Source: Tannerellaceae bacterium (GTDB lineage: Bacteria; Bacteroidota; Bacteroidia; Bacteroidales; Tannerellaceae). Taken from it: a stretch of DNA of 22,908 nucleotides. The position numbers and the translations under genes are program-made. The stretch covers positions 1-22,908 of the forward strand of contig JAITHO010000016.1 of the NCBI GenBank assembly GCA_031279915.1, read 5' to 3'. The notes beneath the pieces were generated by a model. That model made no database searches. It saw only the letters and a program-made list of their open reading frames with translations, and was not told where the DNA came from. Of this stretch, positions 1,701-22,768 are shown piece after piece. Each line of letters opens with the position of its first letter. Position 1 is the stretch's first letter.

Positions 1701-2062
1701 ATCTCTATATCGCAAAAGTCTGAAATTATTTCCCGCAAACCTTTTCGATGTCGCAACGGTCTGAAACTATTTCTCGCAAGCCTTTTCGATATCGCAACGG
1801 TCTGAGATGTTTTCTCGCAAGCCTTTTCGATATCGCAACGGCTTGAATTTATTTCTCGTAAACTTTCTCGATGTCGCAACGATCTGAAATTATTTCTCGC
1901 AAAGCTTTTCGATGTCGAAAAAGGCCGGAATTATTTCTCGCAAAGCTTTTCGACATCGAAAAAGCCTGAGATAATTTCTCGTAAAGGATCGCGACGTCGA
2001 AAAGCCATGAAAAGATTTCTCGCAACATTTTGCGATATCGAAAAGGTTTAAAATTATTTCCT
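1701..2062. repeat. Tandem array 1: 41-bp unit, about 9 copies
   Basis: The dyad element (TCG of CGATRTCG) recurs at 1710, 1751, 1792, 1833, 1874, 1915, 1956, 1997 and 2038, exactly 41 bp apart with no indels. A second marker, TTTCTCGCAA, recurs at the same period. Each unit carries a near-palindrome centred on GATATC, GATGTC, GACATC or GACGTC. In the later copies it is extended to TTTTCGA...TCGAAAA. Because 41 is not a multiple of 3, successive units change frame and the array is not protein-coding. The last unit degenerates directly into the promoter of the next gene. There are no unique spacers, so it is not a CRISPR. Confidence 0.93.
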
Positions 2063-2063
2063 T

Positions 2064-2071
2064 TATATTTG
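2064..2071 (+). promoter_or_regulatory. Bacteroidota -7 box (TATATTTG)
   Basis: A perfect TAnnTTTG element lies 34 bp before the ATG at 2106. No good -33 TTTG lies 19-21 nt upstream; the nearest TTTTG (2028-2032) is too far. The element abuts the end of array 1, so the last repeat units occupy the -33 region. Confidence 0.5.
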
Positions 2072-2105
2072 TAGCCTATTAATTACAGAACAAAATTTAA
2101 AATAG

Positions 2106-2987
2106 ATGCAGAAGTTTATTGCGATACCGTTCAAAACCGTTTTGAAAACTCTTTACATAGGAGAGCATTTCAATTTTTATGAGTCTTCTATCATCATTCC
2201 TCTGGAGGCTTTGCTGGATAATTTGCCGACGATGAAGGAGATGTTGGATGCTTTGAAAAGCTCTTTTGCGGTGGAGGATACCTTGTTCAAGCGGAGCCAG
2301 GCTTCGATTTTTACGCCTGATATTGCTCGATTGAACGATGAAAGGGTGGCTTATTTCATTTTCCTTTGGAGATGCATTGAAATGGCCGATTTGCTGCCTG
2401 GCGCTGATGTGAAACATGCTGCCGACAGGCTGAAGTTCCTGCATCACACGTACAAGGACTTGCCCGAAATGAATTATTACGATATGAGCGGCGCTATGAC
2501 CAACTTCCTCCAAGATTGCGAGACTGCGGTTTATCAGCAGGCTACGCAAACCCTCTCATCGGCTCTGTTCATCGACCTTGCTCATTATATAAACAGGATG
2601 AAGGCCGTGCATGACAACTTCATGGAGCTGCATCAAAAGCGTTCGATCAGCAGGGAGCACGTGGCCGAGATGGGCAGGCTCTCGGAGGTGCGCTTCGATG
2701 TCGACGCCGCTTTTGCCGCTTTGATCGACAGTGCGAATGTGTCTTGGACGGCCAACGAAATGGGAGCCCAGGATGCTGTCATAAGCCACGATTTGCTCGC
2801 CGTGAAGGAAGTTGTTGATGCAGCCATTCACCAGGCGCAATTTGTATTGGCTCACCGCGGATTTCATCGCAAAAAAAAGGAAGATAAGGAGGATGTTGCG
2901 ACTGAGACGGCTTCGGCGGCTACGACTTCGGCCGCTCCCAACAGCTCGGCGCAATCGCCAACAGTGTCGCACACTGACTCCAAATAA
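2106..2987 (+). CDS. Conserved hypothetical protein, possibly DUF6261-like
   Basis: A 293-residue soluble protein with no signal peptide or membrane segment. It is mostly alpha-helical in composition; the N-terminal two thirds (to about residue 255) look like a compact helical domain with many hydrophobic heptad-like stretches. A basic KKK segment near residue 256 is followed by a low-complexity Ala/Thr/Ser tail of about 35 residues, probably disordered. The opening (basic start, then IGEHFNFY) recalls the Bacteroidota DUF6261 family, but I cannot verify this. The start at 2106 follows a TATATTTG box. The gene is followed after 46 bp by a DUF3127 gene that has its own -7 box. No function is assigned. 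Confidence 0.75.
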   Translation: MQKFIAIPFKTVLKTLYIGEHFNFYESSIIIPLEALLDNLPTMKEMLDALKSSFAVEDTLFKRSQASIFTPDIARLNDERVAYFIFLWRCIEMADLLPGADVKHAADRLKFLHHTYKDLPEMNYYDMSGAMTNFLQDCETAVYQQATQTLSSALFIDLAHYINRMKAVHDNFMELHQKRSISREHVAEMGRLSEVRFDVDAAFAALIDSANVSWTANEMGAQDAVISHDLLAVKEVVDAAIHQAQFVLAHRGFHRKKKEDKEDVATETASAATTSAAPNSSAQSPTVSHTDSK

Positions 2988-2988
2988 G

Positions 2989-2996
2989 TATCTTTG
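2989..2996 (+). promoter_or_regulatory. Bacteroidota -7 box (TATCTTTG) for the DUF3127 gene
   Basis: A perfect TAnnTTTG match begins two bases after the upstream stop codon and 38 bp before the ATG at 3034. No convincing -33 TTTG is present; the corresponding region lies inside the end of the upstream coding sequence. Confidence 0.5.
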
Positions 2997-3033
2997 CCGA
3001 CATAGTAAATCAAACAATTTAATATTATTTTTT

Positions 3034-3417
3034 ATGGAAATATCAGGAAAAGTAGTTGCCATTCTTGCGTTGCAAGAGGGAGTGAGCAGGGCCGGCAATG
3101 AGTGGAAGAAGCAAGAGTATATTATAGAAACCGAGGAGCAGTTCCCGAAGAAAGTGTGCTTTCAGATTTTTGGAGCGGATAAAATCTCGCAGTCTAATAT
3201 TCAGCAGGGGGAGCGTATTACGGTATCGTTCGACATTGAAAGTCGCGAATTTAACGGCAAATGGTACACGAATATAAATGCCTGGAAAGTGTCGCGGTCG
3301 GAAGGTCGGAAGGATAATGCGCCTGAGCCCATTCAGCCGTCGGGAGTTGTTTATCAGTCGTCGAGCGAGGCGCCGGAGTTCCCTCCGCCTGAGCCTTCAG
3401 AAGATTTACCCTTTTAG
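3034..3417 (+). CDS. DUF3127 domain protein, OB-fold/SSB-like
   Basis: A 127-residue protein matching the Bacteroidota DUF3127 family. Features are the MEISGKVVAIL opening, WKKQEYIIET, FPKKVCFQIFGADK, IQQGERITVSFDIESRE and KWYTNINAWKV. The pattern is a five-stranded OB-fold of the single-stranded-DNA-binding protein type. Residues about 95-127 form an acidic, proline-rich tail ending in DLPF, closely resembling the DIPF tip that SSB proteins use to dock partner enzymes. The frame stays open upstream to an ATG at 2812, but that would overlap the previous gene by 176 bp. The ATG at 3034 gives the canonical family start and follows a -7 box. The probable role is binding single-stranded nucleic acid, inferred from fold and tail; no specific reaction is known to me. 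The next gene begins 11 bp after the stop, so they are probably co-transcribed. Confidence 0.88.
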   Translation: MEISGKVVAILALQEGVSRAGNEWKKQEYIIETEEQFPKKVCFQIFGADKISQSNIQQGERITVSFDIESREFNGKWYTNINAWKVSRSEGRKDNAPEPIQPSGVVYQSSSEAPEFPPPEPSEDLPF

Positions 3418-3428
3418 ATTTCTGCATC

Positions 3429-4304
3429 ATGAAAAACATTTGCCTCCTTATTCTTTCTGCTATGCTTATTAGCTCTGCGATTGCGGCGCAAAAAACGGTT
3501 GGTAATATAAGCGAGCGGAGTTCGGTTAAAATAGCCCTGAATTTGTATTCGTTCAATAGTCCGCTTAGCGAGGGTAGCGAAACGTTGGAGAGTGTGATTG
3601 ATTATGCCGCATCGCTGGGCTATGCTGCGCTGGATATTACGGGTTATTACTTCAGCACGTATCCGGCGGTTCCGTCGGATGATGAGATTTATCGCACGAA
3701 GTACCGCGCTTTCCGTCGTGGTATTCAGATATGCGGTACTGGAGTTCGTAATGATTTCACGGTTGCAGATCCGGCTGCTCTTGAAAAGGAGAAGCAGTTG
3801 GTGAAGGAATGGATAGTTGTAGCGGCCAAGCTTGGAGCGTCGACGCTGAGGATCTTTGCCGGAGGCGGCGTTCCTCAGGGATCGAGCTGGGATGAAACCG
3901 CTCGCCGAGTGGCTGCATCCATCGACGAATGTGCCGAAGTTGCTCGCCGGTATGGCATCGTGATTGCGGTTCAGAATCACAACGATTTTCTCAAGACGGC
4001 TGCCGATGTTGAGAAGTTGTTCTCGTTGATTCGCTCCGAAGCCGTAGGCTTAATGCTGGATATAGGCAGTTATCGAACCGACCCGTATCTCGAGATTGAG
4101 CAAACGATTGGATATGCCGTCACGTGGCAAGTGAAGGAAACGGTATTTATAAATGGGATTGAGACGAAAACCGATGTGCCTCGTGTTATGGATATTATTC
4201 GCCGCAGCGGTTATTGCGGCTACGTTCCGATCGAAATTATCGGTAAAGGGAATGAGAGGGAGCGAGTGAAGAGGCTTCTGGAGGAGCTAAAATCCGTGAT
4301 CTAA
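3429..4304 (+). CDS. Exported sugar phosphate isomerase/epimerase-like TIM barrel (AP endonuclease 2 superfamily)
   Basis: A 291-residue protein with an N-terminal Sec signal peptide (MKNICLLILSAMLISSAIAA). The mature part has the xylose-isomerase-like TIM-barrel pattern: KIALNLYSFN opening strand, AASLGYAALDITGYY, KLGASTLRIFAGG, YGIVIAVQNHNDF (metal/substrate loop), AVGLMLDIGSYR, VTWQVKETV and a closing YVPIEIIGKGNE. Family members rearrange sugars or inositols using a divalent metal; the substrate cannot be read from sequence. The final metal-ligand glutamate is plausibly the E of PIEIIG. It sits 11 bp after the DUF3127 gene and is followed by a strong bidirectional terminator. A second exported TIM-barrel isomerase lies at 8735-9616 on the other strand. 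Confidence 0.8.
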   Translation: MKNICLLILSAMLISSAIAAQKTVGNISERSSVKIALNLYSFNSPLSEGSETLESVIDYAASLGYAALDITGYYFSTYPAVPSDDEIYRTKYRAFRRGIQICGTGVRNDFTVADPAALEKEKQLVKEWIVVAAKLGASTLRIFAGGGVPQGSSWDETARRVAASIDECAEVARRYGIVIAVQNHNDFLKTAADVEKLFSLIRSEAVGLMLDIGSYRTDPYLEIEQTIGYAVTWQVKETVFINGIETKTDVPRVMDIIRRSGYCGYVPIEIIGKGNERERVKRLLEELKSVI

Positions 4305-4333
4305 AGGCTTGGATTGAGAATCTTCGAGAAAGA

Positions 4334-4368
4334 AAAAGGCCGCTGCACTATAAAGTCAGCGGCCTTTT
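4334..4368. terminator. Bidirectional intrinsic terminator
   Basis: A perfect 12-bp inverted repeat, AAAAGGCCGCTG (4334-4345) and CAGCGGCCTTTT (4357-4368), encloses an 11-nt loop. The A-run on one side and T-run on the other allow it to work in both directions. It sits between the converging ends of the isomerase gene (4304) and the outer-membrane protein gene (4394). Confidence 0.9.
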
Positions 4369-4393
4369 CCGTTTTAAGCGATTAAAAGCGCTA

Positions 4394-5038
4394 TTACAAA
4401 GTGAACCGGTATCCGAAATTCAGTTGAAAGACCAGATTCGTGTAAGCTTTGTCGCGCTGTATAACCTGCTCGCTTGTTGCCTGCCCAGCGGTTGTATATG
4501 CTTTGTAGGAATCGTTCACGATATTGGCAAGCCCCCAATTAATATTGGCGGAGAAGCTCAATCCGGTATCGAGTTCGTATCCTATTCCGATAACAGCTCC
4601 AAAGTCGATAGGCTTTGTGATGGCGTCGGGCATTAGTTTACCTTCAAAGTCGGTTGTGTATCCAACCTTGTCCATCACAGCCATCAGGCTTATTTGCGGC
4701 CCGGCAACGATATAAAATCCCATGCTTTCGATGAGATAATCCGTGAAGTAAAACTTCAGCAGTAGGGGAATGTTCAGATAGTCGAGACTAGGAGAGAGCT
4801 GGTTGAAAGTTGCGCCTTGCATTGAATACAGCAAGCCGGTTTCCACTCCCCATTGCGCGTTGAACATGTAATCGGCGGTGAAACCGAAATTAAGCCCCGG
4901 CTTTAGCGAACCTCCGGAGGTAGGAACAATAGTCGCCAAATTAAGCCCAGCGCGTGGCGTGAAGGCTAAGCCTCCCTGGGCGCGTGCCGTCAAAAGAGGC
5001 ATCGCGAGACACATGATTAATAGAATCGTTTTTTTCAT
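4394..5038 (-). CDS. Outer-membrane beta-barrel protein (OMP_b-brl/PorT-like)
   Basis: A 214-residue protein from the ATG at 5038. It begins with a signal peptide MKKTILLIMCLAMPLLTARA with likely cleavage before Q21. The mature protein alternates hydrophobic and polar residues in about eight strands separated by turns: GLAFTPRAGLNLAT, PGLNFGFTADYMF, GVETGLLYSMQG, YLNIPLLLKFYF, FYIVAGPQISLM, DFGAVIGIGYEL and a terminal FQLNFGYRF. This is the small porin-like barrel of PF13568, common in Bacteroidota; the cargo or partner is unknown. An upstream in-frame ATG (5053) would add five residues before the signal peptide, so 5038 is preferred. The ATG overlaps the purL stop (ATGA, 5035-5038), suggesting translational coupling, which is odd for an OMP and a purine enzyme. 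Confidence 0.85.
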   Translation of the reverse strand: MKKTILLIMCLAMPLLTARAQGGLAFTPRAGLNLATIVPTSGGSLKPGLNFGFTADYMFNAQWGVETGLLYSMQGATFNQLSPSLDYLNIPLLLKFYFTDYLIESMGFYIVAGPQISLMAVMDKVGYTTDFEGKLMPDAITKPIDFGAVIGIGYELDTGLSFSANINWGLANIVNDSYKAYTTAGQATSEQVIQRDKAYTNLVFQLNFGYRFTL

Positions 5039-8000
5039 TTGTTGATAATCCAATTATATGCATTAATAAATATTTCAATCCATGGGGTGAGATAGTCAGA
5101 TTGTTTGTTCTCCGGATAATATCCGCATTGCCAGGGGAAGATGGCTCGCTCTGGGTGAGGCATCATGGCTAAGTGGCGTCCGTCGGCGGAACAAATGGCG
5201 GCCACAGCTCCCGGCGATCCGTTTGGATTGCCGGGATAGGCATCATAGTTATATCTGGCTACAATGTGATAGGCACTATCATCGTAAGGGAAGTCGAATC
5301 GTCCTTCACGATGGGCAACCCATATTCCGAGCTTGCTTCCGCTCAGCGAGGCGAGCATAACGGAAGAGTTTTGAGGTATTTCTACAGACACAAAGGCCGA
5401 CTCAAACTTGGTTGATTCGTTAATCCGCATCTTGTGCGGCTTTTCATGGTCGGGATACAAGAGGCCGAGTTCGGTCATGAGCTGGCATCCGTTGCAAACG
5501 CCTAAGCTGAGAGTATCCTGCCGAGCGTAGAAGCTATTGATAGCCGCACGCGCCTTGTCGTTGTATAGTATGCCTGCAGCCCATCCTTTGGCGGAGCCGA
5601 GAACATCGGAATTAGAGAATCCTCCGCAAAAAACGCTTAGGCTAACGTCGCTGAGCGTTTCTCGTCCGGAGGAGAGATCAGAGAGGTGCACGTCTTTTAC
5701 GTCGAATCCAGCAGTGTATAGCGCGTAGGCCATTTCGCGTTCGCCGTTTGTTCCCTTGTCGCGCAAGATAGCTGCCGTTATGCCCGACGGACGTCGGCGT
5801 GCGGTTGAGGAATAGGCGTCGAACGAGCCATTGAAAGCTTCTGGGAAACGGAACTGAAGCGCTTGCTTTCCGTAGTTTTCGAATCTTTTTCCGGCGCAGA
5901 TACTACCGCTTTGCTTTTCGTCGAGCTTGCGGGATGGAGTGTACCAGATATTGCGAGCAGCGTCGATGTCGATATCAATGTCTATGTCGGAGTCTATGCT
6001 CTGCTGAAAACGATCGTTGCGTATCTCTAAGCATCGTTTGTCGATGGGACGAGCAACAGGGATGAAGCGCACTTGAGCTTTGCGCATTATATCCTCGAAC
6101 GCTTCCAGATCTTTTACCTGAAGAAGTACAGCAGGATTCTCGGCGAAGAGGATAGCCGTGTCGTTCCATTGGGAGAGATCCACATAGAGTCCGCCTTCAA
6201 CGTTCGCGAAGCACATCTCCAGCAGAGCCGTTATCATTCCTCCGGCCGATATATCATGTCCGGCAAGGATTAAACCTTTGGCGATGGCTTCCTGCACAGC
6301 TTCGAAGACGCTGACAAATCTTGCAGGATCTGTAACCGTCGGAGCTTCGTCGCCAATCCTATTCATTGTTTGCGCCAGAGCAGATCCACCCAGCTTAATA
6401 CTGTCGAAGGAGAAGTCTACATAATATATATATGTATAAGGATCCTTTTTAAGTACCGGAGATACGATCTTCCTTACATCGGCCACTTCAGCTCCTGCGG
6501 AGATAATTACTGTCCCCGGAGAGATGACTTTGCCGTCGGCGTACTTCTGGGTCATCGATAGAGAGTCTTTTCCGGTAGGGATATTGATTCCAAGCTTGCA
6601 TGCAAAGTCGGAAGCAGCGCTGACGGCTGCATACAAGCGAGCATCTTCGCCTTCGTTCCGGCACGGCCACATCCAGTTAGCGCTGAGCGATACTCCGGCC
6701 AGCCCGTAAGTAAGCGGGGCGAAAACAATATTGGTCAGAGCTTCGGCGATGGAGAGAACCGATCCAGCTACCGGATCGATTAATCCCGCCTGCGGAGCGT
6801 GGCCGATAGAGGTTGCCATACCTGCTTTTCCGGTATAATCGAGGGCAACTGCTCCGAGATTGGCCAGTGGCAATTGGAGCTCGCCTTGACATTGCTGATG
6901 GGCCACGCGACCCGTCACCGATCTGTCAACCTTATTAGTTAGCCAGTCTTTGCATCCTACGGCTTCGAGACGGAGTACATTGCCGATGTATTCCAGAATA
7001 CGGGCCTCGTTGAAATCAATAGGAGCGAAGGATGTCGGCACGCTCACGTCGTTTATTATCATTTTAGGCGGTCGGCCCAACAGATCCTCAATCTTCAGGT
7101 CAATGGGCTTGCGTCCGTCGGCTTGCTGGAATACGAGCTTCTGATCGCCTGTGGTTTCGCCTACGCGGTAAATCGGCGCTCGTTCGCGCTCGGCTATTCG
7201 CATGATGCCGTCCATATCTGCAGGTTTGATCAGGATTCCCATACGCTCCTGACTTTCGTTGCCGATGATTTCCTTTGAGGATAGAGTCGGATCTCCTATC
7301 GGCAATTGGCTCATGTCGATGCGTCCTCCTATTGACTCCACGAGTTCGGAGAGGCAGTTTAGATGTCCGCCGGCTCCATGATCATGTATGGATACAATAG
7401 GATTCTGATCCGATTCTGCTATGCTGCGAATCACGTTTGCAACGCGCTTCTGCATTTCAGGATTGGCACGTTGCACGGCATTGAGTTCTATTCCGCTAGT
7501 ATATTGTCCTGTATCTACCGATGAAACGGCGCCGCCTCCCATTCCTATGCGGTAGTTATCTCCTCCGAGAACGAGCACGCAATCGTGTGGCTGGGCTTCG
7601 CCTTTTAGCGCATCGCGTTGATTAGCGTAGCCTACGCCTCCTGCGAGCATGATCACCTTATCATATCCGTAAAGCTTATCATTTTCATCGTGCTCAAAGG
7701 TGAGAAGCGAGCCACAGATCAGAGGCTGTCCGTATTGGTTACCAAAGTCGGAAGCTCCGTTGGATGCTTTGATTAATATCTGTTCAGGGCTTTGGTATAG
7801 CCATTGACGCGGATTGATGGCGCGTTCCCATTCGTTTGCGCTTAGGCCGGTTCGCGGATAGGATGTCATGTATACAGCTGTGCCGGCCAAGGGGAGGGAG
7901 GCCTTTCCACCGCCTAATCGGTCGCGGATTTCGCCTCCGGTTCCGGTGGAAGCTCCGTTGAAGGGCTCGACGGTGGTGGGGAAGTTATGCGTTTCGGCTT

Positions 8001-8730: not shown

Positions 8731-8734
8731 GTAT

Positions 8735-9616
8735 TTATACGTCGCAGATCTTAATGCATTTTTCGAGCGATGCGATCTTGTCTGCTTGTTTGGGTACAAA
8801 TTCCTGCCCAACGAATCCTTTGTATCCCGTTGCGACGATGGCTTGCATGATTGCAGGATAGTAAAGCTCCTGAGTTTCGTCGATTTCGGCGCGTCCGGGA
8901 TTACCTCCGGTGTGGATATGCGAGAAGAAGGAATGATACTTCCTGATGTTATTAATAATGTCGCCTTCCATGATTTGCATGTGATAAATGTCGTATAGCA
9001 GGCGGAAATTAGGCGATCCGAGTCGTCGGCAAAGCTCTACGCCCCACACGGTGTGATCGCACAGGTAATCTTTATGCCCGATGCTGTTGAGGAGCTCCAT
9101 CGTTAGCACAACTCCGTGCTTTTCGGCAATGGGGATAATCCGTTTCAGCCCTGCCTCACAGTTTTCCCATCCCTGCAAATCCGTAACGCCATTTCTCTTG
9201 CCCGCAAAGCATATCAGGTTCGTAAGCCCTGCTTTGGCTACTTGCGGAATCACGTCCTCATAACTTTTCACGAGTTCATCGTGAAGCCTGGGGTTGTTAA
9301 ATCCATCATCGATTCCCTTTCCGGCTCCTTGCGCCATTGCAACCGTAAGTCCGTTTGCTTGCACCGTAGGCCAGTCTTGCGGATCAAGAAGTTCAACCGA
9401 TTCAATTCCTATACGTTTACAGATTTTGCAAAACTCGTCGAGCTCATATTCTTTGAAGCACCATTTGCTAACCGAGTGACGAATATTTCCTTTCAAAGGA
9501 GCCGTTTCCATCGCTCCTACGTTCCTCATCCCATATATGGACGACGATGATACTGCCGCTAAGGCTCCGCCGACTAAAGCGGTTTTGATGGCATTACGCC
9601 TTGTAATATGTTTCAT
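8735..9616 (-). CDS. Tat-exported hydroxypyruvate isomerase-like TIM barrel
   Basis: A 293-residue protein opening with a twin-arginine-type leader: TRRNAIK at residues 5-11, then a hydrophobic ALVGGALAA stretch and a likely cleavage region before residue 35. The rest resembles hydroxypyruvate isomerase (Hyi, PF01261): SVSKWCF opening strand, FCKICKRIGIESVELLDP, a conserved glutamate in VLTMELLN, LLYDIYHMQIMEGD, HIHTGGNPGR and a closing FVGQEF, which together provide the usual divalent-metal ligands. Hyi interconverts hydroxypyruvate and tartronate semialdehyde, but exported Bacteroidota homologues probably act on other sugars, so the substrate is open. It is the first gene of a minus-strand operon; the stop is 4 bp before purL. 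A TATATTTG box lies 75 bp upstream of the ATG. Confidence 0.85.
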   Translation of the reverse strand: MKHITRRNAIKTALVGGALAAVSSSSIYGMRNVGAMETAPLKGNIRHSVSKWCFKEYELDEFCKICKRIGIESVELLDPQDWPTVQANGLTVAMAQGAGKGIDDGFNNPRLHDELVKSYEDVIPQVAKAGLTNLICFAGKRNGVTDLQGWENCEAGLKRIIPIAEKHGVVLTMELLNSIGHKDYLCDHTVWGVELCRRLGSPNFRLLYDIYHMQIMEGDIINNIRKYHSFFSHIHTGGNPGRAEIDETQELYYPAIMQAIVATGYKGFVGQEFVPKQADKIASLEKCIKICDV

Positions 9617-9690
9617 TTGAAATTAGAATTTATAGATTTATAATAAGTACCGACAATGTAACTAAGACTAGTTCATTTTTATCTGCGGGC

Positions 9691-9726
9691 CAAATATACG
9701 ATTATCTCCTTATTTATTTGGACAAA
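9691..9726 (-). promoter_or_regulatory. Putative promoter of the isomerase-purL-OMP operon
   Basis: On the minus strand a perfect -7 box TATATTTG occupies 9698-9691. TTTG is at 9726-9723, giving a 24-nt spacer, longer than the usual 19-21, so the -33 assignment is weak. The 5' leader would be about 65-70 nt. Confidence 0.5.
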
Positions 9727-9979
9727 ACAGGTACGCAATGGATTTAAGTAGGAGTATGTCATGGGGCGATATTTCTTTTGAAGCCTAACGCACAATGCCT
9801 CCAATTTTTCTTTCCCTCCTTTCTAATTACAAATATTGAATTATGATTTACGGATGAAGATTCTTTTTCTGAAGATTAAAAAGTTTTTTTGAAGCCTAAT
9901 TTTTTTTTCGGCGAGTTTTCAATATTTCGAGATAGTCAAAAAAAAATGCTGTGCGAGAATAACACTCGTTGTTGGAGCC
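9727..9979. other. AT-rich intergenic stretch with a 13-bp direct repeat
   Basis: No credible gene is seen. The sequence has long T and A homopolymers and two copies of TTTTGAAGCCTAA (9776-9788 and 9887-9899). No tRNA, riboswitch or terminator was recognised. It leads into tandem array 2. Confidence 0.6.
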
Positions 9980-10230
9980 AAAAATCTGCTGGACGCCGAC
10001 AAATTGAATTTATCGGAGCCCTGCAAATGCTAGGATGAAAAATCACTGTTTAAATGGCGTCCTGCAATTGCTGGACGAAAAATCACTCTTTAAATGTCGC
10101 CCTGCAAATGCTGGATGAGATTTACATCGTTAAATGTCGTCCAGCAAATGCTAGGATGAAAAATCACTGTTTAAATGGCGCCCAGCAAATGTTGGACGGG
10201 AAATAAACATTTAAATGGCGTTCGGCAATT
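9980..10230. repeat. Tandem array 2: 40/41-bp unit, 6 copies
   Basis: The element GCTGGACG/GCTAGGATG recurs at 9988, 10029, 10070, 10110, 10150 and 10191, spaced 41, 41, 40, 40 and 41 bp. The partner GCAAATG recurs with matching periodicity (10023, 10064, 10104, 10144, 10185). The first unit (9988-10028) is diverged. Each unit has a hairpin-forming dyad of the type CGTCCAGCA-n-TGCTGGACG followed by a TTTAAATG stretch. It lies in the divergent region between the purL operon and the leu operon, about 200 bp upstream of the leu promoter. Not coding and not CRISPR. Confidence 0.9.
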
Positions 10231-10433
10231 ATTTTATCTCCAAAAAATTTGTTTTCTTTTTTGCGGCAAAAAAATCTTTGGCAAAAATTTCTTTATTTGG
10301 AATTTAGCAAAAAAGATTAGGAAATATTTTTGTTGTGATGCCGGAAATTTGTTTGCGCAGTTGGATTTAGGGATTAAAATTGGAGGAGGATTTTTTTGGG
10401 GCTTGAAAATAAGCTTTGCATGGTGGCAAAATA
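10231..10433. other. G/T-rich spacer between array 2 and the leu promoter
   Basis: The stretch is low-complexity on the + strand, with many TTTG, GGAAATTTG and poly-T runs. An open frame across it (10175-10459) starts inside array 2 and has an implausible Phe/Lys/Cys-rich composition, so I do not call a gene. Nothing else was recognised. Confidence 0.55.
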
Positions 10434-10464
10434 TTTGCAGATGTCGGGAAAGAGTGTAATTTTG
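10434..10464 (+). promoter_or_regulatory. leu operon promoter (TTTG-N19-TAATTTTG)
   Basis: TTTG at 10434-10437, a 19-nt spacer, then TAATTTTG at 10457-10464 is a full match to the Bacteroidota -33/-7 consensus. Transcription would start near 10470, about 15 nt before the leader-peptide ATG at 10486. Confidence 0.85.
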
Positions 10465-10666: not shown

Positions 10667-12187
10667 ATGTCAAACGAGAGATTATTTATTTTCGATACTA
10701 CATTGCGCGACGGCGAGCAGGTTCCTGGCTGCCAGCTGAGCCTTGGCAAGAAGGTGAAGCTTGCCAAGAAGCTTGCCGCAATGGGAGTAGACGTGATTGA
10801 GGCTGGTTTTCCGGCTTCGGGTCAAGAGGATTTCGATAGCGTTGTCGCCATATCGAAAGAAGTTAGCAAGGCGCGGGTGTGCGCTTTAACGCGGGCGAAT
10901 GAGAAGGATATCGACCTTGCCGCAAGGGCGTTGGAGTATGCCACGTACAAACGTATCCATACGGGCATAGGTACGTCGGATTATCACATTCAGGGCAAGT
11001 TCCGCTCAACGCGCGAGGATATTCTCGAACGTGCAATCGGCTGCGTAAAGTATGCCAAGCGATATGTGGAGGATATTGAGTTTTATGCCGAAGATGCGGG
11101 CCGTACCGATAATGATTACCTAGCTCGCGTGGTGGAGGCTGTGATTAAGGCCGGCGCTACGGTTGTGAATATTCCTGATACGACGGGCTACTGTTTGCCG
11201 GAGGAATACGGGGCGAAGATTCGGTATTTGATGGAGAATGTTAGCGGCATCCATAACATTATTATATCTACGCATTGCCATAACGATCTTGGTTTGGCCA
11301 CGGCCAATACTCTGCAAGGTGTGCTGAACGGCGCGCGTCAGGTGGAAGTTACGATTAACGGAATTGGCGAACGTGCCGGCAATACGTCGCTTGAGGAGGT
11401 GGTGATGATAATAAACAGTCATAAGCTACCTTATCAAATAGACGTGAAGCCGATTTACATTCACGACCTGAGCAACACCGTTTCGAGCATGATGAACATG
11501 CCGGTGCAGGCAAATAAGGCTATCGTTGGTCGCAACGCATTTGCTCACTCCTCGGGCATTCATCAAGACGGGGTGATAAAGGAACGGAGCACCTACGAGA
11601 TTATCAATCCCGAAGACGTTGGAATCGATAGTAACATGATAATTCTTTCGGCGCGTAGCGGACGGGCGGCTCTGAAAGCGCATCTAAAAAGCTTTGGAGT
11701 AGATATAGATAATGGAAAGCTCGATGACGTATACAAGCGCTTCGTTGAATTAGCCGAAAAGAATAAATACTTCAGCAATGCCGATGTGTTGAAGCTTGTC
11801 AGGAAAGATTATAAGAAGATGCAACGCTACTCGCTCGAGTATATGCAAGTAACTTCGGGCAAAGAGCCAATCCGTCCCGTAGCAAGCATTGGCGTTATGG
11901 ATAACGGCAATCTCATCGAATCCTCAGCATCAGGAAGCGGTCCGGTAGATGCCGTAATCAGAGCCATCAACTCAGCCATCATCTTGAAAAAAGATAACGA
12001 CGCTGGACGGAAAACACTGACGACATTCAGCATCACAGCCGTCGAATCAGGCAGCGAAGTAGTTGGAAAAGCCCACATAACGATAAGTTACGATAAAAAC
12101 ATATACCACGGCCATGCCGCTCATACCGATATAATCGTAGCCTCAGCCGAGGCTTACATAGATGCCATAAACAAGATTGCAGAATGA
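10667..12187 (+). CDS. leuA: 2-isopropylmalate synthase
   Basis: A 506-residue cytosolic enzyme joining acetyl-CoA and 2-ketoisovalerate, the committed step of leucine synthesis. Seen: [13 protein letters not shown] (residues 9-21, metal and substrate site), [12 protein letters not shown] with metal ligands H203 and H205, [21 protein letters not shown], and a C-terminal regulatory domain from about residue 375 ([24 protein letters not shown]), which in LeuA binds leucine for feedback inhibition. The length is normal for the family. Expression should depend on the leader-peptide attenuator 30 bp upstream. The stop overlaps the leuC start (ATGA, 12184-12187). Around 11,820-11,940 the base composition of the + strand shifts from G/T-rich to A/C-rich within the gene, although the frame and domains are intact. 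Confidence 0.96.
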
Positions 12188-15736: not shown

Positions 15737-15742
15737 TTTATT

Positions 15743-16189
15743 ATGAACAAGAAACTGAATATTGCGCTCGTTGCGCACGACAGGCGTAAAGCCGACATGG
15801 TGGAATGGACGCTTCACAACGCCGAGTTCCTATCGCATCATCACCTTATTTGCACCGGCACAACCGGCAGCCAAATATCCAACGCTTTTGCCGCGAAAGG
15901 CATTGCCGCCGAGATTAGCTGCATGCACTCCGGCCCTCTTGGAGGCGATGCAGAGATAGCGGCAATGGTGGTTCGCAAGGAAATCAGCCTTGCTATATTC
16001 CTTATCGACGACCTCAATCCGCAGCCTCACGAAGCCGACATTCAGATGTTGCTCCGCCAGTGCAGGATTCACAACGTACCCATCGCATGTAATCGATACA
16101 GCGCCGACCTCATGATAACGAGCGCTCTTTGGGACGAGCCAACATACACTCCCAGCGAACCAAAGTATATTCATTTCCATAGAGATTAA
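15743..16189 (+). CDS. mgsA: Methylglyoxal synthase
   Basis: A 148-residue enzyme that converts dihydroxyacetone phosphate to methylglyoxal and phosphate, a glycolytic bypass used when phosphate is scarce or sugar phosphates accumulate. Seen: IALVAHDRRK start, the phosphate-binding TGTTG (residues 38-42), SGPLGGD with the catalytic Asp at 69, and QPHEAD with His96 and Asp99. These line up with Asp71, His98 and Asp101 of the E. coli enzyme, offset by two. The E. coli WDPL motif is IDDL here. NVPIACNRYSADLMI closes the core. Length and active-site residues argue for an active enzyme. The location, 6 bp after the LeuA-like synthase and 9 bp before leuB, is unusual and places it under leu attenuation. 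Confidence 0.93.
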   Translation: MNKKLNIALVAHDRRKADMVEWTLHNAEFLSHHHLICTGTTGSQISNAFAAKGIAAEISCMHSGPLGGDAEIAAMVVRKEISLAIFLIDDLNPQPHEADIQMLLRQCRIHNVPIACNRYSADLMITSALWDEPTYTPSEPKYIHFHRD

Positions 16190-16198
16190 TATACCGAG

Positions 16199-17296: not shown

Positions 17297-17687
17297 GTTC
17301 TCGGCAGGTTATTCCATCGAAATCAAGACAATTAGATCTTGGCACATTGCGTTATCGGCGCGAGCGGCAGGGAAGGACGCATTCACGCCGATAACAAATT
17401 AGTTGGCCTTCGGATAAAACAGCGATATCGTTTTTCTTGCGTGCGATTTTTTTGCGATAAAGAAAGGTGGTTTTGGCTTGCGAAGGTTTTTTTTAGAGTG
17501 TAGCTTTTTTCCCACGCTCTCTCCGATTTACAATCGCTGCGTAATAAGATTTCAGAGCTTTAATGCCAGGCTAATTGCAAATTCGCGCGAACGACATTTA
17601 GCTACGACGCAAAGAATGAAATCAACATCAAAAGATAAAACAAACGTTACATTATCTCTCATAAAAAGCTCTCAGCATTTCGGCGGC
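17297..17687. other. Intergenic region between converging operons
   Basis: No credible gene is seen; the small open frames here lack any recognisable protein pattern. Contents: a 10-bp perfect dyad at 17351-17395, T-rich stretches around 17420-17510, a small imperfect hairpin (AGAGTGT 17495-17501 with ACGCTCT 17514-17520), and a weak minus-strand terminator at its right edge. Confidence 0.6.
17351..17395. other. 10-bp perfect inverted repeat downstream of leuB
   Basis: GTTATCGGCG (17351-17360) and CGCCGATAAC (17386-17395) form a perfect inverted repeat around a 25-nt loop. No T-run follows on either strand, so it is a poor intrinsic terminator. It may be an mRNA 3'-end stabilising structure or a protein-binding dyad. 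Confidence 0.6.
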
Positions 17688-17695
17688 TTACTGAG
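17666..17695 (-). terminator. Weak terminator candidate after the S41 protease gene
   Basis: On the minus strand CTCAG (17695-17691) pairs with CTGAG (17675-17671), followed by AGCTTTTT. The stem is only 5 bp and begins before the stop codon, so this is tentative. Confidence 0.3.
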
Positions 17696-18707
17696 CTCCG
17701 GAAAGGATTTGTATGGCGGTTTCGATTAGCGTATCCAGATGCCGTTCCTCGTCGGCAGGGTCGAGAGCGACGGGGATGTTGGGGGCAACGCCAAATTCGG
17801 TTTGCTGCTTATTAACGTCGAGTATGGGGCTTGAGGAAAATCGCACTCGCCAGCCGTTTGGAAGTTCGGATGTTAGCGGGAAGCCGCTGCCGCCGCCGGT
17901 GGTATCGCCAAGTGTAGTTACGTTCGGCAGGATGCCAACTTTGCTTACGAAGTTATTTCCTGCACTGTAACATCTGCGGTTGGTTAGGACAATGACGGGT
18001 TTGAGCCATAGATGTCCGATGCTGTATGGTTCGAGATAAAGTGGATATGGTTCGGAGAAATCGTTGTGTCCCTTGCCTGTTTTGTGGAGGATATATCCGC
18101 AATGAACTCGTTTGTCGGTGAAACGTGCGGCGAGGCGATCGGAATTGGTTAGCGAGCCTCCGCCGTTATTTCGCACGTCGATAATCAGGCCGTTGCAATT
18201 AGCGAAGGAGTCGAATATTTTGTTCAGCTCTGTTTCCAATATGCTTTCGTGAAAGCTACCGTAATATATATATCCGATTTTACCGTCAGAAAGAGTTTTG
18301 TAGCGTATTTCATCGTAATCACCGGTTCGTTGGCTTCCTTCCAGGTAGGTTTGTATGACGTTCCAGTTTAAATTGGAAGGATATTCGGAGTGCCAACCTT
18401 CGTAAGCGGAAAAAGCGTAGAAGGATGTGATGTTGATATGTCCGTCTTGCAGTTCGTCGGCCATGTTCGCTAGGGTTCGGAACAAATCGTACTGGTTGCT
18501 TGAATCGCTTATAAGAGGGCTGTACTCCTCGTAAACAGCGTTCCAGTCGACGTTTTTGTACTCAAAGAAGCAGTAGTTTTCGTCGATCAGCTGCCAGAAC
18601 GCATCAAAATTACGTCGCGGAGATTCGTTGTATTCATCGTCCACCGTACATCCGGATATGATGGCGGCCCAGAGGCATAGCTGGAATATGAGCTTCATGT
18701 TTTTCAT
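17688..18707 (-). CDS. S41 family peptidase, lipoprotein
   Basis: A 339-residue protein with a lipoprotein signal peptide: MKNMKLIFQLCLWAAIISGC, lipid Cys at 20. It is therefore likely anchored in the cell envelope. The fold matches tail-specific/C-terminal processing peptidases: an N-terminal helical part (NFDAFWQLIDENYCFFEYKN), LQDGHINI, IGYIYYGSF, NGLIIDVRNNGGG, then PVIVLTNRRCYSAGNNF with the likely nucleophile Ser248, and DTTGGGSGFP. No PDZ domain is evident. The ATG at 18707 overlaps the preceding stop (ATGA, 18704-18707). An alternative start at 18731 would bury the signal peptide, so it is rejected. Substrate unknown; it is last in an operon with parC and a DUF3316-like gene. Confidence 0.87.
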   Translation of the reverse strand: MKNMKLIFQLCLWAAIISGCTVDDEYNESPRRNFDAFWQLIDENYCFFEYKNVDWNAVYEEYSPLISDSSNQYDLFRTLANMADELQDGHINITSFYAFSAYEGWHSEYPSNLNWNVIQTYLEGSQRTGDYDEIRYKTLSDGKIGYIYYGSFHESILETELNKIFDSFANCNGLIIDVRNNGGGSLTNSDRLAARFTDKRVHCGYILHKTGKGHNDFSEPYPLYLEPYSIGHLWLKPVIVLTNRRCYSAGNNFVSKVGILPNVTTLGDTTGGGSGFPLTSELPNGWRVRFSSSPILDVNKQQTEFGVAPNIPVALDPADEERHLDTLIETAIQILSGAQ

Positions 18708-19513
18708 TTGAGATAAAATTCTTTGACCCATCCTATAAGTAAGGTATTAGAAAATATTCGGGTTTGGATGGAGTGTACATCCGTCGTGTAATAGCTATAC
18801 AGATATCCCAAGCGCAAAGTCTGAGTGTATATAGGAATATCGATAGTTACGTAGTTTGTGAGCCCAAGTTTATTATGAAAGGAGTTAAATGCGAGGACAT
18901 CAGAAAGATTTCCTTCGTTAAACATTTCATAGTAAGAAGCTCCGTAAGGAGGCGCGAAGAAGAGGCCGGCAACGGGCAACATGCCTTGATAGCGCAAGGT
19001 AACCGGGGCTTCGTTTATCCAAAGAGTGTACATCAGCATAAGCGACAAGCTAAGGCTGACGTCAGCTTTGGCCGATAGCGGATTATTGCCGTTGCGCGTA
19101 TTGTAGATAAAGCCTCCCATAATAGATGCGGACGCGCCGAAGAGTATATTGAAATCGTTTCCGTTGAAAACATTATAATGATAGGCATGCGAGTAATCCA
19201 CAAAGATTCCGAAGTCGTTCACATTCTCGGCAGGGTTTTTAGTCGTAGCTAAATCCACTCCTATTATCCGCTGGCGCGATAACTTTGATTGCAGCCATGT
19301 GACACGTTCGTTGAGTATGCGTCCGCCCCATCCCTGGTAAATGAATGGCGACAGATAGGTATCTTTCAGCTGATAACTTCCGAATCCGAAACTTGTTGCC
19401 TCATCCATTGCTCTCAGTGCAAGCGTATCGATTTGCGTAAGCCCGGATTGGCTGCAAGCAAAAAGGATGAGGATCCCCATAAAGAGTTTGTTACGGATTC
19501 TCCTTTTAATCAT
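18704..19513 (-). CDS. DUF3316-like envelope protein
   Basis: A 269-residue protein with a basic, hydrophobic signal sequence (RRIRNKLFMGILILFACSQS, probable cleavage near residue 26). The rest is rich in aromatic residues and amphipathic beta strands: FGFGSYQLKDTYLSPFIYQG, GRILNERVTWLQSKLSRQ, FGIFVDYSHAYHYN, ILFGASASIMGGFIYN, TLRLGYLYSYYTTD and a final NTLLIGWVKEFYLK. The pattern resembles the Bacteroidota DUF3316 family of predicted outer-membrane barrels. I am fairly but not fully sure of the family; no function is known to me. It overlaps the end of parC by 8 bp and the S41 peptidase start by 4 bp, so the three are one operon. Confidence 0.75.
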   Translation of the reverse strand: MIKRRIRNKLFMGILILFACSQSGLTQIDTLALRAMDEATSFGFGSYQLKDTYLSPFIYQGWGGRILNERVTWLQSKLSRQRIIGVDLATTKNPAENVNDFGIFVDYSHAYHYNVFNGNDFNILFGASASIMGGFIYNTRNGNNPLSAKADVSLSLSLMLMYTLWINEAPVTLRYQGMLPVAGLFFAPPYGASYYEMFNEGNLSDVLAFNSFHNKLGLTNYVTIDIPIYTQTLRLGYLYSYYTTDVHSIQTRIFSNTLLIGWVKEFYLK

Positions 19514-22205
19514 CGAAGAGTTTCATTTGGCCTGTGATTTGGTCGATCAGGTCGGATTGATTTTCGCTTTCCGGATTCAAATCCTCTGCCGTTGGAGGGA
19601 TTTCTGCCTCAGGATCTTCATCTGCGGGAGCGGATTCATCGTCGGTTGAGAGGAAGCGTACAGGCTCAAGCTCGTTGATAGTCTCTATTTCGAAGGTGGA
19701 GATTCGTTTGCCTTTCACTTTAAAGCCTTTCACGGAGATGAATTCTTCGACGTCTATAAGGAGTGGCTCCCGCTTGGCATCTTTCCCTCCAAATACAACT
19801 TCTATCCTCGGATAGGCTTCGTTAGTGAGTAGATAGAGGCGATTGGCTGCATTATCACCGATGAAATTCTGTTTGCGTGGCGTGGCTTCGAGCTGGAATC
19901 GCTTCAGGTATCGGAAGCCTTGTTCAGCATCGAGATAAGTAGCCGTCCATATCTTTTCGGGCATATATTTCTCGATGCTTAGGATATTATCTTCATAATG
20001 ATTGCTGAGATCGAAGCTTGTGATGTAGAAATCACCGTTACGGAGTATGACGAGGATTTGGTCGCTCGACTGAAATTCGCCAAGTTCATCGCCGCGTCCG
20101 TCATAGTTAAGTCGCAGAACGGCCCAGTCGAACCAAACCAACCTGCCGCCGAGCGTGGATATGCCCTTTTGCTTGAGGGAGATCTTGTGCACTTCGGCTT
20201 TTGTGAGGATGATGCCCAAAGCCGCGCGCGCTTTGATGCCTACATCGCTGAATGATTTCTCGAACACCAGATTCTTTTGCCTTGGCTTGGGCTTGTGAAT
20301 AATCTTGATGGTTTCGGCCTCGCCGTTTGGATTGGCGCTGAAGTACATTATTCGAGAGCCTTCCGTGCCTTTAGTAACGAAATATTCCTTATCGCGGGTC
20401 ACTCCAAGAACGTTGAATCGCTTTATGTAGTTGTAGCCAAGTTTGCCGTCGCGGTAGACCACGTTGTATATCGTTCGGCTATCATTTCGGGCAAATACAT
20501 TAATATATATTACGTCTTTACCGATAAAAATCTTGTCGGCCACTTTTATTACCTTGAAAGTTCCGTTGCGATAGAAGAGGATTATGTCGTCCATATCGGA
20601 GCAGTTGCATACAAATTCGTCTTTCTTGAGCGACATGCCTGCGAATCCTTCGGCTCGGTTGATATAGAGCTTCTCGTTTGCTTCTACAACCTTTGCGGCC
20701 TCTATGGTGTCGAAGTTGCGGATTTCGGTCATGCGCGGAAAGGCATCGCCGTACTTCTCCTTCAAGCCTTCAAACCATGCGATGGCGTAGGCTGTGAGGT
20801 TGTCGAGGTGGTATTGCAGTTTTAGTATCTCTTCCTCTGTGCGGGCGATGAACTCGTTGCTCTTTTCGGAATTGAACTTGAGGATGCGGCCCATTTTAAT
20901 CTCCATCAGCTTCAGAATATCATCGCGACCTACTTCACGAATGAAGTTCGGTTTGAAGGGTTCGATGCGGAGGTCGATATGCGTCACGGCTGCATCCATA
21001 TCCACTGCATTCTCAAACTCTGCATCCTTATATATACGTTCCTCAATGAAAATCTTTTCTAAGGATGCGAAGAAAAGGGCATCTTCCTGTTCGGCCTTTT
21101 GTATTTCGAGTTCCGATCGCAGTAGCGACATTGTGTTGTCAGCCGAATAGCGCAGCACGTTGCTCACAGTCATGAAGTGCGGCTTGTTATCCATGATGAC
21201 GCAACAATTGGGCGATATGCTGATTTCGCAATCGGTGAATGCGTATAGAGCGTCAATAGTTTTATCGGGCGATATGCCTGGCGAGAGGTGGATTATGATT
21301 TCCACATCCTTTGCCGTATTATCGTCCACCTTCTTAATCTTGATTTTCCCCCTTTCGTTTGCCTTCAGTATAGATTCTATAAGCGACGAAGTTGTTCGCC
21401 CGAAGGGGATATCGCTAATGACAAGAGTTTTTAAATCAAGCTTGGTGATTTTAGCTCTCACCTTAACAGTTCCACCCCGCTCGCCGTCGTTATATTTGCC
21501 GACATCTATAAAACCGCCTGTCTGAAAATCGGGATAAAGCACGAAGGATTCGTTCTTCAGATATGCGATAGATGCATCAAGCAGCTCATTGAAATTGTGT
21601 GGAAGAATCTTCGACGAAAGTCCCACGGCTATGCCCTCAACCCCTTGCGCCAGCAGCAGCGGAAACTTCACCGGCAGCGTAATCGGCTCGCGGTTCCTGC
21701 CGTCGTAGGAGGATTGCCAAAGAGTCGTTTTAGAATTAAAAAACGTTTCGAGGGCAAACTTCGACAGCCTTGCTTCGATGTATCGTGGAGCCGCAGCGCC
21801 ATCTCCCGTAAGAATGTTCCCCCAGTTGCCCTGGCAGTCGATCAGCAATTCCTTTTGTCCGAGTTGTACAAGAGCGTCGCCAATAGAGGCGTCTCCGTGA
21901 GGATGGAACTGCATAGTATGCCCAACGATGTTAGCAACCTTGTTGTATCGTCCGTCGTCGAGGCGCTTCATAGAATGCAGTATGCGCCGTTGCACAGGTT
22001 TAAGCCCGTCGTTGATGTGAGGCACAGCCCGTTCCAAAATAACATAAGAGGCATAATCGAGAAACCAGTTTTGATACATCCCTGAAAGATGATGGGTTAT
22101 TTTCCCATCCTTTCCGGGAGCTTTGTATTCGGAATGAGTTATCGATGTCTGCTCTTCCTTCATTTCGTTGTTACCTTGATTATCTATAAAATCTTCGAAG
22201 TCCAT
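19506..22205 (-). CDS. parC: DNA topoisomerase IV subunit A (ParC)
   Basis: An 899-residue type IIA topoisomerase subunit that cuts and rejoins DNA to unlink daughter chromosomes, acting with ParE. Seen: an N-terminal extension of about 40 residues, YASYVILERAVPHINDGLKP, the helix-turn-helix region HTMQFHPHGDASIGDAL, the catalytic Tyr142 in AAAPRYIEARLSKF, a coiled-coil tower region around 400-500 (EEEILKLQYHLDNLTAYA), a degenerate beta-pinwheel C-terminal domain, and an acidic tail (ESAPADEDPEAEIPP). The tail and KDGKITHHLSGMYQ match the Bacteroidota ParC type rather than GyrA. At the quinolone contact corresponding to E. coli GyrA Ser83 there is Ala106; the Asp87 position is Asp110. The start at 22205 follows a TAAGTTTG box. 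It is the first gene of an operon with two envelope-protein genes. Confidence 0.93.
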   Translation of the reverse strand: MDFEDFIDNQGNNEMKEEQTSITHSEYKAPGKDGKITHHLSGMYQNWFLDYASYVILERAVPHINDGLKPVQRRILHSMKRLDDGRYNKVANIVGHTMQFHPHGDASIGDALVQLGQKELLIDCQGNWGNILTGDGAAAPRYIEARLSKFALETFFNSKTTLWQSSYDGRNREPITLPVKFPLLLAQGVEGIAVGLSSKILPHNFNELLDASIAYLKNESFVLYPDFQTGGFIDVGKYNDGERGGTVKVRAKITKLDLKTLVISDIPFGRTTSSLIESILKANERGKIKIKKVDDNTAKDVEIIIHLSPGISPDKTIDALYAFTDCEISISPNCCVIMDNKPHFMTVSNVLRYSADNTMSLLRSELEIQKAEQEDALFFASLEKIFIEERIYKDAEFENAVDMDAAVTHIDLRIEPFKPNFIREVGRDDILKLMEIKMGRILKFNSEKSNEFIARTEEEILKLQYHLDNLTAYAIAWFEGLKEKYGDAFPRMTEIRNFDTIEAAKVVEANEKLYINRAEGFAGMSLKKDEFVCNCSDMDDIILFYRNGTFKVIKVADKIFIGKDVIYINVFARNDSRTIYNVVYRDGKLGYNYIKRFNVLGVTRDKEYFVTKGTEGSRIMYFSANPNGEAETIKIIHKPKPRQKNLVFEKSFSDVGIKARAALGIILTKAEVHKISLKQKGISTLGGRLVWFDWAVLRLNYDGRGDELGEFQSSDQILVILRNGDFYITSFDLSNHYEDNILSIEKYMPEKIWTATYLDAEQGFRYLKRFQLEATPRKQNFIGDNAANRLYLLTNEAYPRIEVVFGGKDAKREPLLIDVEEFISVKGFKVKGKRISTFEIETINELEPVRFLSTDDESAPADEDPEAEIPPTAEDLNPESENQSDLIDQITGQMKLFDD

Positions 22206-22240
22206 TTATAATATAGGATTTGCATGTTTAAGGATGTCGG

Positions 22241-22272
22241 CAAACTTAGATAAATTTTCCTGACCCCACAAC
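22241..22272 (-). promoter_or_regulatory. parC operon promoter
   Basis: On the minus strand, GTTG at 22272-22269, a 20-nt spacer, then a perfect TAAGTTTG at 22248-22241. The -33 half matches only as TTG. The 5' leader is about 30 nt. Confidence 0.65.
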
Positions 22273-22433
22273 CGCCCCAGTCCGCATAGCCCCGCAGAAA
22301 ATATTGAAATTGAGCTCCAAAAACAATCTCAGCCCATCTTTTTGCAGATTTCCGCATAATTAAAGCCCGAAAAATGCCCAAGCGAAGCCAAGAATGTCCC
22401 CGCCCTCCCAATAAAACAAGTCACAGTTCTAAA

Positions 22434-22768
22434 GCGTTCGACACTCTGTTTGGATTCCGTGGCAGAGCGTCGAACATGTTCAAAACTCTGTTTGGGTTCC
22501 GTGGCAAACCATCGAACATGTTAGACGCTTTGTTTGGGTTCCGTGGCAAACCGTCTAACATGTTAGATGCTCTGTTTGGATTCCGTGGCAAGCCGTCTAA
22601 GATCTTAGATACTTTGTTTGGAATCCATGGCAAACCGTCTAAGATCTTAGATGGTTTGTTTGGAACTTGCGGCAAACCGTCTAAGATCTTAGATGCTTTG
22701 TTTGGAATCCGTGGCAAACCGTCTAAGATCTTAGATGGGTTGTTTGAAACTTGCGGCAAGCCGTCTTA
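22434..22768. repeat. Tandem array 3: 42-bp unit, 8 copies
   Basis: GTTTGG (GTTTGA in the last copy) recurs at 22448, 22490, 22532, 22574, 22616, 22658, 22700 and 22742, exactly 42 bp apart. Each unit carries a dyad. Early copies centre on GAACATGTTC/TAACATGTTA and later ones on TAAGATCTTA, so the centre changed from CATG to GATC with both sides altered together. The flanks AAACCGTC and GAYGGTTT extend the palindrome in some units. Because 42 is a multiple of 3, long frames stay open on both strands (14-residue repeats), but unit differences are mostly amino-acid changing. I therefore treat it as non-coding. It lies between the parC promoter and a rightward promoter. Confidence 0.93.

Follow-up and report, generated by a model that had tools for sequence, protein, structure and literature searches.

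The closest precedents for the repeat arrays described here are, judged by analogy, the MITE464/PgRS and BrickBuilt elements of Porphyromonas gingivalis, a species that we take to belong to the order Bacteroidales. In the accessible portions of the published accounts, MITE464/PgRS carries 41-nt tandem direct repeats (PMC4596501), BrickBuilt is a 23-nt tandem repeat within a P. gingivalis miniature inverted-repeat transposable element (MITE) (Klein et al. 2015, PMC4596501), and tandem repeats of 41, 23, and 22 nt are described for strain W83; the same portions do not link these repeat periods to helical turns. Here, we describe three arrays of 40-42 bp units in a contig of a Tannerellaceae bacterium (contig JAITHO010000016.1 of GenBank assembly GCA_031279915.1) and the genome-wide class to which they belong. 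The window, meaning the whole stretch of DNA that was analyzed, comprises all 22,908 bases of this contig (C32), one of 229 in a source genome (G000) of 2.09 Mb (2085 kb) that is 60.75% complete. Metagenome-assembled genomes of such Tannerellaceae presumably originate from termite guts. The array class is real and unusually dense, and the preliminary description, made from the letters of the window, understated it. The three arrays are as follows:

1701 to 2062, no strand: array 1, 41-bp unit, ~8.6 copies, placed at 1707-2060 by Tandem Repeats Finder (TRF), in a tandem gap between two + strand genes
9976 to 10230, no strand: array 2, ~6 units of 40-41 bp, TRF 10018-10230, period 40 or 81, 5.2 copies of 40
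22434 to 22768, no strand: array 3, 42-bp unit, ~8 copies, TRF 22447-22746, 7.1 copies

All three were recovered by TRF with units close to the 40-42 bp first reported (41, 40 or 81, and 42 bp), and no called gene overlaps any of them, in agreement with the intergenic position originally assigned to them. Arrays were called with TRF at score thresholds of 60, 80, and 100, differing by test, and genes with our own script, in 81 contigs or contig parts of G000 (727,200 bases of 2085 kb) and in 60 stretches of a second genome, G017 (914,146 bases of ~3.1 Mb; 83% complete), whose topoisomerase subunit A is the closest to that of G000 (92% identity) among those of the 17 further congeners that were searched (G001-G017). 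At a score of at least 100, 87/108 arrays in G000 and 134/168 in G017 have a period of 39-43 bp, amounting to 120 and 147 arrays/Mb and to 13.3% and 16.3% of the non-coding DNA, respectively. The periods of these 221 arrays are tightly grouped, with 131 at 41 bp, 64 at 42, and 26 at 40, and overlap with called genes is below 10% for 86/87 arrays in G000 and 128/134 in G017. The preliminary description had predicted a genome-wide, intergenic excess of 40-42 bp units and had named the absence of an excess and a wide spread of unit lengths as findings that would speak against it; the samples from both genomes clearly contain the excess, and the spread of lengths is very narrow. No array with a score of at least 100 arose when 40 contigs of G000 were locally shuffled three times, and six 50-kb stretches of Escherichia coli K-12 (300 kb; TRF score of at least 50, period of at least 10) held nine arrays, none at 39-43 bp and one at 21.

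Periods were also compared across 79 Bacteroidota loci around the topoisomerase subunit A gene, mostly from Bacteroidales by their titles (1.35 Mb, of which 201 kb is non-coding), a set that includes 13 congeners of G000 and leaves out the G017 record. The 54 non-coding arrays found there at a score of at least 60 fall at 20-23 bp in 42 cases and at 39-43 bp in 6, the remainder being one at 33 and five at 11-17, with none at 24-32 or 34-38; a further 20 arrays overlap genes. The 13 congeners (166 kb of loci) contribute nine arrays, seven of them with a period of 20-23 bp. Because non-coding periods lie near two and four helical turns with almost none between, the phasing of about four turns proposed at the outset gains weight; that the dyads of an array would face the same side of the helix in the cell remains a conditional part of that proposal.

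Arrays of other periods are present as well. Those of 45 bp in G000 (6/108 at a score of at least 100, e.g., L142 779-886, L155 1437-1546, and L178 17936-18027), a period absent among the non-coding Bacteroidota arrays, look like protein-gene repeats distinct from the 41-bp class. Arrays with 22-bp units that by eye resemble TTTACnTACTTAnGCAAAT show no clear dyads (L178 5249-5338, L166 8497-8619, and L150 4670-4760) and perhaps form a separate class.

The internal symmetry of the units is likewise widespread. The consensus dyad score of the 87 own arrays averages 6.39, compared with 4.29 after shuffling, reaching at least 8 in 21/87 (0.8% of shuffles) and at least 6 in 56/87 (10% of shuffles). 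Within the 84 arrays that have a clear dyad, 0.7-5.3% of cells differ from the consensus at bases 2-7 from the axis, against 13% at the axis and 12-13% at bases 10-12, and the stems are the least variable part of the unit (inside lower than outside in 65/84 arrays, p=3e-6), bearing in mind that stems were picked from the consensus, which may favor less variable columns, and that the copies of an array are related, so that counts within arrays are not independent. Where both sites of a stem pair had changed, the result was a Watson-Crick pair in 17/31 distinct events versus 53/264 over ten slid controls (p=7e-5), the individual controls yielding 2 to 13 complementary events each (highest 13/34). 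Identity at 4-fold sites over 126 G000-G017 gene pairs is 0.569, half the Jukes-Cantor distance of which is 0.32 substitutions per site; 3.6% of units would retain a dyad score of at least 7 after that amount of simulated unconstrained substitution, whereas 41% of the 221 units have one, which implies either young units or dyads that are upheld, whether through selection or through fold-back copying. An arrangement of two full dyads half a period apart was also considered and set aside as weak (weaker half 0.43 vs 0.38 shuffled); RNA folding predicts one hairpin per unit for 187/221 arrays, a share close to that in shuffles (517/663).

Comparison of G000 with G017 shows that the places are shared more than the letters. 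Own gaps that carry an array are also occupied in G017 in 17/27 cases, against 13/62 of the gaps without one (odds ratio 6.4, p=2e-4), in a test restricted to gene pairs sharing 60% identity or more, with at least 100 bp free of arrays on both sides, in which each own gap counts once and a G017 gap may recur. An earlier test by gene ends, with gaps of at least 150 bp, gave [[30,11],[9,16]] (p=0.004) for 5' ends and [[20,9],[3,8]] (p=0.03) for 3' ends, with weak orthologues included (4/24 listed co-occupied pairs below 60% identity) and gaps counted from both sides; it had itself replaced an uncontrolled one-sided count of arrays having a counterpart no more than 1.5 kb from the corresponding edge (24/37 own, 24/51 G017). 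Unit similarity at orthologous slots averages 9.1 over 21 pairs, compared with 7.8 for random pairs, and 18/21 pairs do not rise above the random 95% point (12) while 3/21 exceed it; these are the 24 listed pairs after two repeats of one array and a second pairing of window array 2 had been dropped. Simulated neutral inheritance yields mean similarities of 10.0 with an indel and 10.9 without, and places 51-62% of pairs at a similarity of 10 or below, compared with 17/21 observed, close enough that drift nearly explains the changed letters, though not the dyads. That letters differ by place and by species while period and symmetry hold steady suggests that it is the shape of the DNA that is preserved.

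The units fall into many families, the 221 of them forming 121 groups at a similarity threshold of 22, 104 at 20, and 61 at 17. Around the variable palindromes, a weak common frame can nevertheless be discerned, approximately TGGrGC - palindrome - GCyTCCgGAA, which carries 7.94 bits when the 54/104 families with a clear dyad are aligned on the axis, versus 4.57-5.05 in eight flank shuffles, and 6.28 bits under stricter merging (30/61 families, versus at most 5.37 in 10 shuffles). The window arrays fit this frame weakly (leave-out p of 0.02, 0.29, and 0.10 for arrays 1, 2, and 3, respectively), and by eye the palindrome has been swapped while the frame stayed at L240 19573-19704, at L169 8392-9013, and in the unit at the edge of array 2 in the window. 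The initial statement that the arrays share no sequence thus holds for the palindromes but only in part for the frame. A fixed TTCCGCAAGC box was rejected as a general feature and applies to a subset only, with at least 8/10 matches in 18/104 families where shuffling predicts 3.4; the reversed box reached 8 families and two arbitrary boxes 2 and 2.

Arrays occupy 17/51 divergent gaps in G000 and 28/64 in G017, 8/46 and 11/58 convergent gaps, and 19/282 and 42/353 tandem gaps. Since the tandem counts include short, probably operon-internal gaps, our reading is that the arrays mark transcription-unit boundaries of every orientation. Neither the frame (co-directed with the flanking genes in 19/44 tandem gaps) nor the A-tract (17/36) shows a strand preference, and this, combined with the variety of gaps occupied, favors a role at the DNA level, or none, over a role as RNA.

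We propose, with a probability of roughly 0.4, that the arrays may be minisatellites acting at the DNA level, whose shape would be maintained at transcription-unit boundaries. The ~41-bp unit would comprise a variable palindrome or short-loop hairpin and a spacer, often with an A-tract, recurring about every four helical turns, with a sister class of arrays repeating about every two; unit letters would drift and some units would be shared or swapped between arrays, while dyad and period would be kept, for which the best explanation may be that structure matters. Under negative supercoiling, hairpins or cruciforms could form from the palindromes, all facing the same side of the helix, and might absorb supercoils or seat an architectural protein between neighboring units. 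A wider version is more doubtful, namely that two- and four-turn dyad arrays constitute a class of Bacteroidales elements for which geometry is more defining than sequence, outlasting their letters at transcription-unit boundaries, serving as topological or architectural insulators, and having exploded in one Tannerellaceae lineage. Whether the arrays benefit the host or merely perpetuate themselves is close to an even call.

Several observations weigh against maintenance of shape. The abundance of 39-43 bp arrays is confined to G000 and G017, with 0/9 arrays of this period in the 13 congeners, as would be seen after the burst of a mobile element. Members from both genomes stand together in 8/121 groups, for example in the GCGATAATTATCGC family, in which the G017 members whose own counterpart was located (L218 and L236) face a different unit in G000; families whose slots differ between the two genomes indicate that some units move. 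The dyads are not universal, 31/87 own consensus units scoring at most 5, so that the preliminary description, for which a lack of dyads in most other arrays would have been damaging, is borne out for the 56/87 units that score at least 6 and not for the rest. Single changes in the stems are far more common than compensatory ones (327 vs 17 distinct events). Palindromes can persist through fold-back repair with no selection acting, and intact dyads would likewise be expected in young units. Finally, when both neighbors had to be adjacent in both genomes, the slot association was weaker ([[79,4],[1,2]], p=0.012) and, with at least 100 bp free, amounted to [[16,4],[1,2]] (p=0.16), in a version of the test that includes 20-23 bp arrays and in which 3 own array gaps remain.

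The most serious competitor, which we place somewhat short of even odds, holds that the arrays are self-perpetuating minisatellites without function, that is, non-autonomous repeats of the PgRS/BrickBuilt kind that burst in one lineage, grew by slippage, and survived where insertion was harmless, their dyads being kept by hairpin-templated copying and their period by homogenization. The restriction of the burst to two relatives, the units common to arrays at different loci and to both genomes, the changed half-units seen by eye inside arrays, and the near sufficiency of neutral inheritance for unit divergence are all consistent with this explanation, as is the presence of 41- and 23-nt repeats within P. 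gingivalis MITEs according to the accessible portions of PMC4596501. It is harder to reconcile with the flanks, in which general terminal inverted repeats (TIRs) are lacking: a flank-to-flank match of at least 14 was found in 15/171 arrays versus 0.8% of controls (mean 9.44 vs 7.85), an excess made up of few arrays, several of them with degenerate edge units, for which reason TIRs were rejected as array borders. Unit copies outside arrays are also few (18 places of 20-72 bp), and single-unit mobility was rejected on this account. Transposases of the repetitive extragenic palindrome (REP)-associated tyrosine transposase (RAYT) type (PF01797) had no match in G000 or G017, although their incompleteness (61% and 83% complete) leaves room for one, and were present in 6/18 genomes searched, all among the 16 others; DDE_Tnp_1 matches, at 2 in G000 and 1 in G017, are not in excess. 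Over the observed divergence, moreover, one would expect repeats under no selection to have been lost by deletion. No cause could be assigned from gene content, as SbcD and MutS2 occur in both array-rich genomes, PF01797 is absent, and neither DDE_Tnp_1 nor HU-family genes are in excess (4 HU-family genes in G000 and 6 in G017, versus 1-16 in 16 congeners).

The absence of an HU-family excess also weighs against the idea that the dyads are operator-like platforms, bound on one face of the helix by a dimeric nucleoid or regulatory protein that reads mainly the frame and the symmetry. Steady arms around a variable center, the common frame, and the four-turn period would all fit such a platform, but the arms of the palindromes vary among families, unlike those of an operator read by sequence, and we regard this explanation as unlikely. 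Still less probable is that the arrays are transcribed as chains of hairpins functioning as terminators, stabilizers, or small RNA sponges. Folding energy per unit averages -10.4 kcal/mol versus -7.5 for shuffled sequence, with z below -2 in 72/221 arrays, and BrickBuilt segments have bidirectional promoter activity in the accessible portions of PMC4596501; on the other hand, a search of the window against Rfam returned no match at the gathering score, arrays lie in divergent gaps too, and the lack of orientation relative to flanking genes reported above counts against the structured transcripts suggested in the preliminary description. There is very little to recommend an artefact of assembly or repeat finding, or ordinary low-complexity DNA: the copies are imperfect (8.7% differences outside the dyad), the same class appears in a second assembly, and the shuffled contigs and E. 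coli stretches lack it. In its favor, 23/87 own arrays (and 17/134 in G017) lie at contig ends, which leaves their copy numbers uncertain; the arrays may, for their part, explain some of the contig breakage in such genomes.

The outcome matters in either case. Should selection act on shape and spacing and leave the letters free, the arrays would represent a class of non-coding elements invisible to homology searches, and they would offer a natural experiment in the insulation of neighboring transcription units by bacteria. If they are self-perpetuating, palindromes and a helical period would persist without selection. Either way, the 22/23- and 41-bp repeats reported from P. gingivalis become tied to a pattern present in the sampled Bacteroidota loci.

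Two observations concern MITE-like sequences near arrays. At L168 6070-6297, an array (6098-6269) lies flush between 28-bp inverted repeat copies (GGGCAATTTTTTTTCTGGGAAGAAnCTA), and some arrays may accordingly sit in a MITE-like frame. Separately, an element of ~170 bp, MITE-like by eye, has long inverted ends with GGTCATTCCCGCGAAGGCGGGAAT (L177 6833-7008, L246 11776-11949, and L232 5959-6130); its 24-mer, allowing at most 2 mismatches, has 42 matches in G000 and 193 in G017, and had no match in the remaining 16 genomes that were searched. Paired copies number 29 across the sampled contigs, and the element recurs in the flanks of several arrays. Three of the 29 (L199 2010-2173, L237 7794-7960, and L254 7059-7223) carry an insert of 41-43 bp in one inverted end, with a dyad of its own by eye, and a fourth copy (L019 12961-13111) has a shorter insert.

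Within the window, the surroundings of the three arrays include the following features, with TAnnTTTG being what we take to be the Bacteroidota-type -7 element:

2064 to 2071, + strand: TAnnTTTG box directly after array 1
8735 to 9616, - strand: sugar isomerase/epimerase-like gene (every match falls below the curated cut-offs), on the other side of array 2 from leuA and divergent from it
10457 to 10464, + strand: TAnnTTTG box between array 2 and leuA, with a further + box at 10325 and a - box at 9691
10667 to 12187, + strand: 2-isopropylmalate synthase gene (leuA; NCBIfam NF002086, TIGR00973)
19506 to 22205, - strand: DNA gyrase/topoisomerase IV subunit A gene (NCBIfam NF009397), with array 3 in its upstream gap
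22814 to 22821, + strand: TAnnTTTG box after array 3, with a - box at 22241 on the topoisomerase gene side

A promoter downstream on the + strand had been taken as common to the three arrays. The + boxes are indeed present, but so are those on the - strand, and array 2 lies between divergent genes while array 3 is upstream of a - strand gene, so that this feature does not define the arrays; no + strand gene is visible after array 3 up to the contig end at 22908. One dyad per unit, the other shared trait proposed, is evident in arrays 1 and 3 (consensus score of 8 each), whereas array 2 scores 4, the shuffled level, in consensus and displays its recurring dyad, CCAGCAAATGCTGG, in single copies. 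The axis of array 1 varies by copy (CGATATCG, CGATGTCG, CGACATCG, or CGACGTCG), and that of array 3 shifts along the array (GAACATGTTC, GAACATGTTA, TAACATGTTA, TAAGATCTTA), by eye with both arms changed together; also by eye, GCAAAC/GCAAGC stands at an equal offset from the axis in both. The edge unit of array 2 (~9990-10020) differs by eye in its second half (CCGACAAATTGAATTTATCGG), which resembles that of array L009 5177. A second array of the array 2 family lies at L189 265-452, and an array related to array 3 is found on another contig of G000 (C71). Array 3, with a period divisible by three, contains open reading frames on both strands (131 and 112 aa). In G017, the gaps upstream of leuA and of the topoisomerase subunit A gene (L089 9297-9664 for the latter) also hold arrays, each with a different unit, and the slot of array 1 is not among the matches in the G017 sample.

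Among the papers listed by searches of mostly open-access literature, none dealt with arrays of this kind in Tannerellaceae or Parabacteroides, and the available parts of a survey of prokaryotic direct repeats and palindromes (PMC4060949) do not mention them. Clustered regularly interspaced short palindromic repeats (CRISPRs) share palindromic repeats at regular intervals but differ in that here the whole 40-42 bp unit repeats, without unique spacers. The tandem repeats of Borgs, as described in the covered portions of PMC9879509, are similarly pervasive and rapidly evolving direct repeats, but belong to archaeal extrachromosomal elements, and helical periods are not mentioned there. GTAG/CGTC REPs are extragenic, pair a constant tag with a family-specific palindrome, and include sub-families with alternative complementary stem residues, and the weak frame around variable palindromes seen here may follow a comparable plan; a tandem layout of fixed period is not described in the accessible text (PMC3733652), and no RAYT-type gene was found in the incomplete G000 and G017. 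Compared by description, and within what the available portions of its account convey, MITE464/PgRS shares the 41-nt period and multiple copies with the present arrays but is one family with IS5-like TIRs and ~10-20 copies, whereas the arrays here belong to dozens of unit families, reach 120-147 per Mb, and lack general TIRs; allowing one mismatch, a PgRS-like 12-mer gave 16 and 12 matches, raw counts that carry no chance expectation. Features of the PgRS/BrickBuilt type are thus present here as far as the 41 or 22-23 bp unit and the intergenic position are concerned, and flanking TIRs are not. BrickBuilt, on the same partial basis, is set apart by a leader and tail with TIRs, a single unit family, and 19 copies in ATCC 33277, and it resembles the arrays of this lineage in its intergenic location, its unit length of close to two helical turns, the long stem-loops predicted for it, and the conservation of some sites, in its case in P. 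gulae.

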